Below, in pieces: positions 60,064 through 63,113 of a stretch of 63,113 nt of DNA. Origin of the DNA: Prochlorococcus sp. AG-409-P01 (lineage in GTDB: Bacteria; Cyanobacteriota; Cyanobacteriia; PCC-6307; Cyanobiaceae); NCBI GenBank assembly GCA_003215335.1, contig QCKM01000009.1, positions 1 to 63,113 on the forward strand. Direction: 5' to 3'. How positions within the stretch are numbered: position 1 is the first letter of the stretch; each line of letters begins with the position of its first letter. The notes under the pieces were generated by a model. It saw only the letters and a list, made by a program, of their open reading frames with translations. It made no database searches and was not told the origin of the DNA. The position numbers were made by a program, and so were the translations under genes.

Positions 60064-60297
60064 ATGGTTCAATTTGACGATGTTTGCAGTGCAATTAAAA
60101 GAGCAATGCCAGATGCTGAGGTCATTGTTGAAGACATCAACGGCGGAGGAGATCACCTTCATGTAAAGGTTGTTTCCAGTGCGTTTGTTGGCATGTCTTT
60201 AATCCGTCAGCATCAAATGGTCTATGGCGCTCTTAAGGATGAGTTGGCCAGTGAGGCTATACATGCTCTTGCCTTAAATACATCAACCCCTAACTAA
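60064..60297 (+). CDS. bolA: BolA-family protein
   Basis: 77 residues with [22 protein letters not shown] near residue 17 and [16 protein letters not shown] near residue 46, the BolA core. BolA and CGFS glutaredoxin form a heterodimer around a 2Fe-2S cluster. The partner gene lies 16 bases downstream. Confidence 0.94.
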
Positions 60298-60313: not shown

Positions 60314-60637
60314 ATGGATCCCAAGACTCTTAATCGAATTGAGACATTGCTTCAGTCAAGTCCAATTATGGTTTTTATGAAGGGCACGAAACTAATGCCA
60401 CAGTGCGGCTTTTCAAATAATGTTGTTCAGATTCTCAATGCTCTTGGAATGAACTTTGAGACTTTTGACGTCCTGACAGATATGGAAATTCGTGAAGGCA
60501 TTAAGGAATTTTCAAACTGGCCAACTATTCCTCAGGTTTATGTAAAGGGGGAATTTATTGGTGGGTCTGATATTTTGATTGAGATGTATAACTCAGGAGA
60601 ACTTCAAGAGAAACTAGAGGTTTCTTTAGCTTCATAA
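60314..60637 (+). CDS. grxD: monothiol CGFS glutaredoxin
   Basis: 107 residues. The CGFS active site is in QCGFSNNVVQ near residue 31, after VFMKGTKLMP; TIPQVYVKGEFIGGSD near residue 75 binds glutathione. It holds and transfers Fe-S clusters with BolA, whose gene is just upstream, likely in one transcript. Confidence 0.95.
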   Translation: MDPKTLNRIETLLQSSPIMVFMKGTKLMPQCGFSNNVVQILNALGMNFETFDVLTDMEIREGIKEFSNWPTIPQVYVKGEFIGGSDILIEMYNSGELQEKLEVSLAS

Positions 60638-60653: not shown

Positions 60654-60926
60654 TTACCACCCTTTTTCCTTTTGTTGAAAGAGCGTACTTATGTCACCAT
60701 CTGGTCCGATGAAGCTAGAAGGGTCAAGAATCCATCTTTCTATAAGTGATTCAAGCTTGGCCTGCTCTTTCTGATCTAACCGGTTGCAACGTCTTAGGGC
60801 GTGTAAGTACCCATCGGCATATAGTCGCAATTCAAAAGGACTGTGATTTCTCGTAGTTAGTTCTTGGCATGCATCACAAATTGATTGGAAGTGCCTTATT
60901 GCCTCAGGGTGATCAATTGATGTCAT
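60654..60926 (-). CDS. cyanobacterial conserved hypothetical protein
   Basis: 90 residues with FQSICDACQELT near residue 13, LRLYADGYLHALR near residue 33 and a helical rest. The AICDACQEL / LYADGYLHALR pattern is one I associate with a cyanobacteria-only family (possibly DUF6761). Function unknown. Convergent with grxD and divergent from the response regulator. Confidence 0.65.
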   Translation of the reverse strand: MTSIDHPEAIRHFQSICDACQELTTRNHSPFELRLYADGYLHALRRCNRLDQKEQAKLESLIERWILDPSSFIGPDGDISTLFQQKEKGW

Positions 60927-61002
60927 TGTCTTCTAGTAAGGAGGCCTTTCCTAACAGACTGGCATTGAATTTGGTTAGCGTAAGGGGGCTCTGTATTTAC
61001 AA

Positions 61003-61767
61003 GTGACTTTTCCATCTCAAGATCTACTCTCAGCGGAGCAAAATCAATCCCCAATGGGTTCTTCCGATTTGGCCTCAGGTTCACCTAATGGCCCTTCAAG
61101 GGTTTTGGTGGTTGAACCTCATCCGACTCTTCGAACTGTCTTGGTGCAGCGTTTAAGACAGGATGGACATTTGACTGCTGCGGTTCATTCGGCAGCTGAA
61201 GCAATCAATCTTTGCCGAGATGAAGCACCTGATCTTCTTGTGAGTTCAGAAATACTTGAAAAAAGTTCTGCATTACGTCTGGCTCAGCAACTTGGCTGTC
61301 AGGTCATAGTTCTCACTGCTCGAACTGGTGTCGAGCCAGTAGTTGGACTCTTGAACGAAGGTGCTGATGATGTACTTAGAAAACCATTTGGTCTTGAAGA
61401 GCTGGCAGCACGCTCCAGAACATTGTTAAAGCGTGGTCGAAGTGGTCTTCAAGAATGTGTATCTGTAGGGCCACTTGAAGTTCATTTGCTTTTGAGGCAA
61501 GTCACTCTTCGTGAGAAGCCTGTTGAGTTAAGTCCAAGGGAATTTGCGCTTCTCTGTGCTCTATTGATGCCTCCTGGCATGGTTCGTAGTCGTCAGGAGC
61601 TTCTCAGAATGGCTTGGCCTCCTTTTAGTGGAGGTCCACGATCAGTTGACACACAAGTGTTAACACTTAGACGAAAACTTGAGCAAGCCGGACTTGGTGA
61701 AGGAGGAGGTATTACAACTGTTCGTCAGCAAGGATATCGATTTAGTTTAGATAACCTACCTTCATAA
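61003..61767 (+). CDS. OmpR/PhoB-type response regulator with a degenerate receiver
   Basis: 254 residues starting at GTG 61003. After a 30-residue polar tail comes a receiver (RVLVVEPHPTLR to LLKRG), then a winged-helix DNA-binding domain (LSPREFALLCALL, then RSVDTQVLTLRRKLEQAG and TTVRQQGYRF). The receiver keeps LTAR and LRKPFG, but the phospho-accepting Asp is Ser (APDLLVSSEI near residue 80) and the acidic pair is EP. So it likely works without phosphorylation. Target genes unknown. No kinase is nearby. Confidence 0.85.
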   Translation: MTFPSQDLLSAEQNQSPMGSSDLASGSPNGPSRVLVVEPHPTLRTVLVQRLRQDGHLTAAVHSAAEAINLCRDEAPDLLVSSEILEKSSALRLAQQLGCQVIVLTARTGVEPVVGLLNEGADDVLRKPFGLEELAARSRTLLKRGRSGLQECVSVGPLEVHLLLRQVTLREKPVELSPREFALLCALLMPPGMVRSRQELLRMAWPPFSGGPRSVDTQVLTLRRKLEQAGLGEGGGITTVRQQGYRFSLDNLPS

Positions 61768-61826: not shown

Positions 61827-63113
61827 TTACTTTGGAAGACTCCATTTGTTGATCCCTAGCTCAGCTCCAATTTTATGAGCACAAGCATATCCGCTGAAGG
61901 CCACAGCATTAAGACCTTGTCCAGGGAAGCATGAGTCTCCAACACAAAAAAGGCCTTTAATTCCAGTGCTGTTAAAGGGCATTGTTAATAAGCCAGGGAG
62001 ACGCATTGAAGGTATTGGACCATAACTTCCTTGGAATCTTCCTAAAAACCGTCGATGACTTCTAGGAGTGCCTATTTCCTTATGAGTGATTGAACTTTGA
62101 AGCCCTGGAATAATCTTTTCTAGCCTCGAAATAAGAATATTTGCGTCATTTTGCTTTTTGTTTGCATATTCAGAAGGGCTCAACCCTTTCCATTCATTTA
62201 TTGAAGAAGGTGTAAATGTATGAACAATATGATGCCCATCAGGAGCTAAGCTTGGATCAAGCAAGGTGGGCATAGAGACGAAAGCAACTCCTTGCTCAGA
62301 ATTCATTTCATTCCATTGCTCTAAAAGAAGGTGATGACAATGCTTTTGTGCTGCTATCCCTTCGCTTTTTACACCAAGATGGAGCGATAAAAATGATGGA
62401 GAGGGCCTGTATCTACGAAGCCAGGTCTTTTCTTTTTCTGGCACATAATCCGCATCTATTAGTGGATTTTTTGAACCTTCTCCTCCAAAAGTATCCCAAC
62501 GAGTGGCATTGGAGATCACTCTTCTCGAATGAATCTCTTCACCAGTAGAAAGCTTTACGCCAATAGCTTTTTTGTCTTCTAACAAGACTTTTACAACTCT
62601 TGCCTTGTAGCGGATTTGGCCGCCATTGTTTTTTAGACCGCGTACAAGTTTTTCGGCAATAATTCCCACTCCTCCTCTTGGGTAGTTGATTCCGCCAGCA
62701 TGACGATCTGAGAAAACCATGCCTGCGTTAATCATGGGTGTTTCGTTGGCTGGCATTACAGACCAACAAAAACATTCAATATCAATAAACCTTAAGAGCT
62801 CCGGATCTTTTATGAGACGACGGGCTAAATCTCCAACATTGATTGGTAACCATCGAGCAAGGCCTAAACACGAGAGTGGTGATTTAAAAAAAACCTTTGC
62901 TAAATAGGCTGGATCTTCAATAGATAAAAGTGGCATCGAATCTAGACAATTAAAAACTTCCCAGCAAATGTCATAGAAACTTCGAATACCTTTTGCTTCG
63001 TGTGGAAAAAGAGCTGTGAGGTCATTGATGAATTTGTTGTAGTCCCTATCCACAGCTAGCTCTAGTCCTCCGGGGAGGTGATATGCAAGCTGAACAGGGT
63101 CAGGGAATGTTTC
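61827..63113 (-). CDS. crtH: carotenoid isomerase (CRTISO/CrtH-like), N-terminus cut by the window edge
   Basis: Flavoprotein of the phytoene desaturase superfamily that isomerises poly-cis-lycopene. The frame is open to base 63113, so the N-terminal FAD-binding Rossmann motif lies outside. About 429 residues are visible. NYPRGGVGIIAEKLVRGLK near the middle, the SNATRWDTF segment and the C-terminal GLFCVGDSCFPGQGLNAVAFSG (FAD-binding) fit CRTISO. A CrtP/CrtQ desaturase is less likely from these motifs. Confidence 0.85.
   Translation of the reverse strand, partial: ETFPDPVQLAYHLPGGLELAVDRDYNKFINDLTALFPHEAKGIRSFYDICWEVFNCLDSMPLLSIEDPAYLAKVFFKSPLSCLGLARWLPINVGDLARRLIKDPELLRFIDIECFCWSVMPANETPMINAGMVFSDRHAGGINYPRGGVGIIAEKLVRGLKNNGGQIRYKARVVKVLLEDKKAIGVKLSTGEEIHSRRVISNATRWDTFGGEGSKNPLIDADYVPEKEKTWLRRYRPSPSFLSLHLGVKSEGIAAQKHCHHLLLEQWNEMNSEQGVAFVSMPTLLDPSLAPDGHHIVHTFTPSSINEWKGLSPSEYANKKQNDANILISRLEKIIPGLQSSITHKEIGTPRSHRRFLGRFQGSYGPIPSMRLPGLLTMPFNSTGIKGLFCVGDSCFPGQGLNAVAFSGYACAHKIGAELGINKWSLPK

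Follow-up and report, generated by a model that had tools for sequence, protein, structure and literature searches.

The window, meaning the whole stretch of 63,113 nucleotides from Prochlorococcus sp. AG-409-P01 that was analysed, encodes an OmpR/PhoB-type response regulator without the aspartate that accepts phosphate in canonical receivers. The protein is probably a kinase-independent orphan regulator, set by its own level or by a partner, with the neighbouring DUF6761 protein as the best candidate for that partner or for a target. Despite loss of the aspartate, the fold, the conserved lysine and the dimer-face residues D123, E133 and R137 are kept. In the mechanism proposed, the regulator would dimerise through alpha4-beta5-alpha5 and bind its DNA sites without phosphate, and its output would be set by its own amount, by a protein partner acting on the pseudo-receiver, or by both, the DUF6761 protein across the shared intergenic region being the prime candidate for a partner or co-regulated gene product. 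The phospho-site has changed repeatedly in the family, the picocyanobacterial DNA-binding domain is as constrained as that of RpaB, and the conserved neighbour is a concrete candidate for the pseudo-receiver's missing input.

The locus and its altered phospho-pocket

The original prediction of a receiver joined to a DNA-binding domain in the frame at 61003-61767 was borne out by Pfam, both domains passing their cut-offs, and a search by fold placed OmpR/PhoB regulators first. The features of the locus are as follows.

60064-60297, + strand: bolA (Pfam BolA, 64.9 bits)
60314-60637, + strand: glutaredoxin gene (Pfam Glutaredoxin, 79.6 bits)
60654..60926, - strand: DUF6761 protein, 90 aa, divergent conserved neighbour (Pfam PF20547, 108.5 bits, cut-off 27)
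60927..61002, no strand: divergent intergenic region of 76 bp between the DUF6761 gene and the regulator
60976-60981: TAGCGT, a -10-like block upstream of the regulator that recurs in many relatives (alignment of 30 sequences)
61003..61767, + strand: aspartate-less OmpR/PhoB-type response regulator, 254 aa, GTG start (open reading frame list, Pfam and orthologues)
61102..61413, + strand: pseudo-receiver domain, residues 34-137 (Response_reg, 46.7 bits, Pfam cut-off 30.2)
61246..61248, + strand: codon TCA for Ser82, in the phospho-aspartate column (alignment)
61516..61743, + strand: winged-helix DNA-binding domain, residues 172-247 (Trans_reg_C, 58.6 bits, Pfam cut-off 26.2)

Most of the 30 relatives' rows of the upstream alignment share the position of the GTG start, and inspection of that alignment by eye showed no conserved operator or repeat between the DUF6761 gene and the regulator. 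Upstream lie genes for an acyltransferase, a protein whose TPR matches fall below threshold, BolA, a glutaredoxin and the divergent DUF6761 protein. Downstream, a convergent frame at 61827-63053 runs off the end of the window; by eye it resembles a carotenoid-isomerase-like oxidoreductase, and it has no Pfam match at 0.001.

Serine had been predicted in place of the phospho-acceptor, and alignment with the genome's four other receivers, all of which carry aspartate in this column, places Ser82 there. The first acidic position is Glu38, the second acid is replaced by Pro39, and Thr105 and Lys127 are retained; Val124 occupies the tyrosine/phenylalanine switch position, such that the aromatic switch is gone. 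The pocket and switch positions therefore read E38, P39, H40, S82, E83, T105, V124 and K127, and with serine for the aspartate and proline for the second acid this is not a canonical phosphorylatable receiver. A shortening of the loop directly after the site, also predicted, was not found: the beta3-alpha3 stretch is of normal length, and the approximately four missing residues belong to alpha3 and to its turn into beta4, further along the chain. Correspondingly, alpha3 is short, at about residues 90-97, in an AF2 model (pLDDT 88.6, pTM 0.55) whose 60 input sequences took in OmpR-type regulators of viral contigs; a model using only 22 close sequences (pLDDT 53) was dropped.

Across 167 orthologue loci, the aspartate column holds alanine in 160, threonine in five, serine in one and a gap in one, the last being a fragment that does not cover the site; aspartate occurs in none. 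The loci were not drawn at random: 80 are the best 80 of 488 matches and another 28 come from 30 genomes picked for weak or partial matches, the other two of these 30 being fragments that were also counted. Overlap between the collections reduces the 167 loci to 148 distinct sequences. Ser82, together with the absence of aspartate from all 167 loci, places the protein in the aspartate-less subset as defined in a 2025 review (PMC12632262). As judged from these sequences, the loss of aspartate in picocyanobacterial orthologues is old and fixed and the serine of the window is a local change from alanine, since alanine prevails, aspartate is found in no locus and the alanine codons are all GCN. 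Thus the residue fixed among orthologues proved to be alanine, with serine the odd one, and orthologues with aspartate, which would have overturned the original prediction, did not appear.

That the serine is a sequencing error, or the gene a pseudogene, is vanishingly improbable. The window's genome is a draft of 1.78 Mb in 31 contigs, and TCA is one base from an alanine codon, both of which might raise suspicion; the other serine row, however, comes from a single-contig genome (locus L012 of genome G057, 85% identity) and has the same TCA codon, aspartate occurs in no examined orthologue, the reading frame is unbroken and conservation of the DNA-binding domain is strong.

The same genome has five receiver-bearing regulators and five HATPase_c matches, none of the latter on the window's contig, in agreement with the earlier statement that no histidine kinase lies nearby. 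Three of the five HATPase_c frames are taken for kinases, one passing a curated histidine-kinase model and another being NblS-like (941 bits, below the NblS cut-off of 1000); the remaining two, judging by their length, are presumably GyrB and HtpG. One of the five receiver-bearing regulators of this small genome is therefore without the aspartate that accepts phosphate from a kinase, and counts pairing every response regulator with a kinase would mislead for these organisms. As separate observations, a second regulator of the window's genome, G000 C2:9052-9756 (L209), clears the RpaB cut-off of 330 with 354.7 bits, beside P0002 at 387 bits, and in genome G008 a LuxR-type regulator (L238:5162-5926; GerE, 67.3 bits) lies directly downstream of the regulator. 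This LuxR-type protein has no Response_reg match at 0.001, its N-terminal half appears by eye receiver-like without the aspartate, and it is perhaps a second kinase-independent regulator.

Distribution and constraint in picocyanobacteria

The 400 genomes searched were an even draw from the family; 398 of them give some match at E<=0.001, the weak ones being paralogues. At the stricter threshold of E<1e-50, counted from the table by eye, the orthologue occurs in every one of the 71 single-contig genomes and in 244 of the 251 with a completeness of at least 90%; of the 149 below that completeness, 39 are without it. Of the seven near-complete exceptions, G343 carries a fragment and the other six are without DUF6761 too, for which reason absence is attributed to assembly gaps. 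Matches to glutaredoxin in five of these six drafts are weak at best (25-32% identity); the sixth, G243, has a glutaredoxin gene whose end is at contig base 6, so that the regulator would fall off the contig. True gene loss was set aside, the locus being missing or cut by the contig start, and missing assembly is the simplest cause of these absences. Near-universal presence, in a genome with five receiver-bearing regulators, fits the suggestion that this is a core regulator in a lineage with few of them. Titles of the best 80 of 488 named loci nearly all give Prochlorococcus or Synechococcus; one orthologue, L096 (83% identity), stands on a contig labelled as the planctomycete Rubripirellula. 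This contig is probably picocyanobacterial and strayed into that bin.

In a set of 145 distinct orthologues, invariant positions number 62 of 100 in the DNA-binding half (residues 150-249), 32 of 104 in the receiver and none among the 32 N-terminal residues. Mean pairwise identity across the same 29 genomes is 0.929 for the DNA-binding domain as against 0.925 for that of RpaB, and 0.762 for the receiver as against 0.905. The DNA-binding domain is as strongly constrained as that of RpaB and the receiver less so; the former, expected from the outset to be intact, is well kept by both its Trans_reg_C match and its conservation. H40, C71, E83, D123, V124, E133, R137 and C185 occur in all 145 sequences, K127 and the charged receiver residue E132 are likewise invariant, and C138 is found in 143 and C99 in 129.

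The receiver evolves faster than a working one, and could act as no more than a passive scaffold for dimerisation in an ordinary constitutive regulator controlled by its expression level alone. The gap in receiver identity beside equal DNA-binding domains is consistent with such decay, as is loss of both the tyrosine switch and the second acid, but 32 invariant positions, E132, E133 and R137 among them, are perhaps beyond the needs of a free scaffold, and this explanation is regarded as somewhat unlikely.

The wider cyanobacterial family and its DUF6761 neighbour

Beyond the picocyanobacterial family, 88 cyanobacterial genomes were searched. The best match lies between 8e-41 and 1.8e-29, at 34-42% identity, in 75 of them; for the remaining 13 it is weaker than, or close to, 1e-28 and is possibly a paralogue, and the regulator family is therefore not universal. 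The distant alignment covers 63 of the 75 genomes in 64 rows, two of which, L187 and L242, come from one genome; left out were 11 of the 75, row L241 (G403) and the 13 genomes with weak matches. A tree was built from the picocyanobacterial and distant rows together with 25 further OmpR-type regulators drawn from five genomes, NblR, RpaB and some presumed to be RpaA-like among them; no curated RpaA model was matched. A single branch with support of 100/99 splits the picocyanobacterial and distant rows from the 25 others, and the same split has 99 SH-aLRT in a larger, quick second tree. The picocyanobacterial branch is very long, and was flagged as such in the first tree, which is why gene order matters for orthology.

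This gene order is highly consistent among close relatives, with a divergent DUF6761 neighbour in 79 of the 79 testable loci of the set L040-L119; the eightieth, L096, has only 68 bp of upstream sequence. Position in the tree and the divergent neighbour both place the regulator in a DUF6761-associated cyanobacterial OmpR-type family. It is, on sequence and gene order, the orthologue of an unnamed OmpR-type regulator found in most cyanobacteria searched, and is not NblR. The orthologue alignment, when scanned against viral contigs, found no relative.

The aspartate column of the 64 distant rows holds aspartate in 55, serine in five, alanine in two and glutamate in two, while the second acid is absent from 59; serine occupies the threonine position, and the lysine and tyrosine switch are kept, in all 64. 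Aspartate and its alternatives are separated by at least five changes on the second tree, which came from a short search and has many open forks. Since the second acid is gone from 59 of the 64 rows and the aspartate kept in 55, the metal site was already altered in most of the family, the aspartate then being lost repeatedly, apparently once before the picocyanobacterial radiation. With aspartate in 55 rows, some distant members may still be phosphorylated.

The distant rows also bear on whether residues E38, H40, E83, T105 and K127 of the old phospho-pocket might bind a metal or a small molecule, making the protein a ligand or metal sensor. The distant family has asparagine at the position of H40 and variable residues at that of E83, and since both are invariant in the picocyanobacterial orthologues the pocket seems to have been rebuilt rather than merely lost; the invariance of K127 is in keeping with this. 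Such invariance may, however, serve salt bridges that hold the fold, and a sensor of this type is considered quite improbable.

A search for DUF6761 in 30 distant genomes, hand-picked from the 75, found it in 25. It is divergent from the regulator at less than 700 bp in ten of these and at 1.3 kb in one, and lies elsewhere or on another contig in 14. The ten genomes with a close pair span seven taxonomic families, and are therefore not fully independent. The five genomes without DUF6761 belong to a single family (f26), and each of them has a match to the regulator. Among 14 control genomes DUF6761 was matched only in Synechococcus elongatus, and in G409, taken for this species, the distant regulator lies divergently beside the DUF6761 gene. 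Of the window's neighbours that were looked for, DUF6761 alone was found beside distant regulators. The conserved pairing favours a partner or a co-regulated target and proves neither; with DUF6761 unlinked in 14 of 25 genomes and absent from five of 30, linkage does not make it a universal partner. A stronger form of this association, in which the two proteins are an ancient cyanobacterial kinase-independent pair and DUF6761 senses or relays a signal, binding and switching the pseudo-receiver, is held tentatively and thought unlikely. Were it so, phosphorylation would have become dispensable, and the aspartate could have disappeared in parallel on at least five occasions, one of them at the base of the picocyanobacterial group.

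In close relatives the pair is itself adjoined by bolA and a glutaredoxin gene, which lie upstream in 73 of the 80 loci L040-L119 and in L238; the other seven of the 80 begin less than 1 kb from the regulator. This adjacency possibly indicates an iron-sulphur or redox link, and would suit a thiol switch in which conserved cysteines set the oligomeric state according to the photosynthetic redox state. Invariance of C71 and C185 and near-invariance of C138 and C99 agree with this idea, and there are precedents: redox control of oligomeric state through cysteines is reported for Rre1, RpaA and RpaB in PMC9321951, and RpaA, RpaB and ManR are listed as putative thioredoxin targets in PMC4361706. 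However, the window's own protein has serine at 138, the alpha3 cysteine described in the former source is at a different place from the cysteines here, and C185 falls within a near-invariant DNA-binding domain where conservation needs no redox cause. Moreover, neither bolA nor glutaredoxin was found in the 10-kb surroundings of seven distant regulators. Redox switching is accordingly judged distinctly unlikely, and the preferred reading remains a kinase-independent regulator set by its level or by a partner, DUF6761 foremost.

Relation to known regulators

No description of this regulator family, and no paper containing the word DUF6761, was found in a literature search of sources outside subscription journals. 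Named identities were tried and rejected by score. Against the NblR model (NCBIfam NF045914, cut-off 300) the protein scores 75.6 bits, as against 399.6 for the NblR of G409 itself, and it forms a separate clade from NblR in the tree. Against the RpaB model (NCBIfam NF045944, cut-off 330) it scores 94.2 bits, the genome's own RpaB, P0002, reaching 387, and against the PhoB model (TIGR02154, cut-off 296.2) it scores 117.7. From its gene number, the orphan PMT9312_0717 of PMC6365647 is probably not this regulator.

The AF2 model aligns by Foldseek over approximately 225 columns with KdpE, PrrA, RpaA, CosR, RitR and HP1043, and GlnR is also among the matches spanning both domains. Receiver-only matches have an rmsd of about 2 A, and whole-length matches of about 7 to 16 A, so the domain arrangement, which is uncertain in the model (pTM as above), is not matched. 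RpaB and RpaA have the same domain order and occur in the same genome, as cousins with intact receivers in which the aspartate is present.

RitR, ChxR and GlnR share the architecture and are aspartate-less or phosphate-independent OmpR/PhoB regulators; in RitR, a cysteine plays a role. RitR likely retains Y/T coupling, according to PMC4395418, unlike the regulator described here, which has valine at the aromatic switch position. NblR of Synechococcus elongatus offers a likeness as another atypical cyanobacterial OmpR-type regulator, for which activity without phosphorylation is reported (PMC12632262). CosR of Campylobacter and HP1043 of Helicobacter are similarly OmpR-type proteins with altered phospho-sites and no kinase gene nearby. 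Between these two, the receiver is 38% conserved and the DNA-binding domain 83%, and HP1043 has four receiver residues deleted; they belong to another lineage, however, and essentiality is a reported feature of CosR, whose phosphorylation is left open in the source (PMC3139631). Aspartate-less regulators made up 2% of the OmpR-type architecture in one survey (PMC4395418), and the switching of pseudo-receivers is called a mystery in the 2025 review that treats them (PMC12632262). Regulators of the OmpR type without the aspartate are already known; what is unusual here is the repeated change of the phospho-site.
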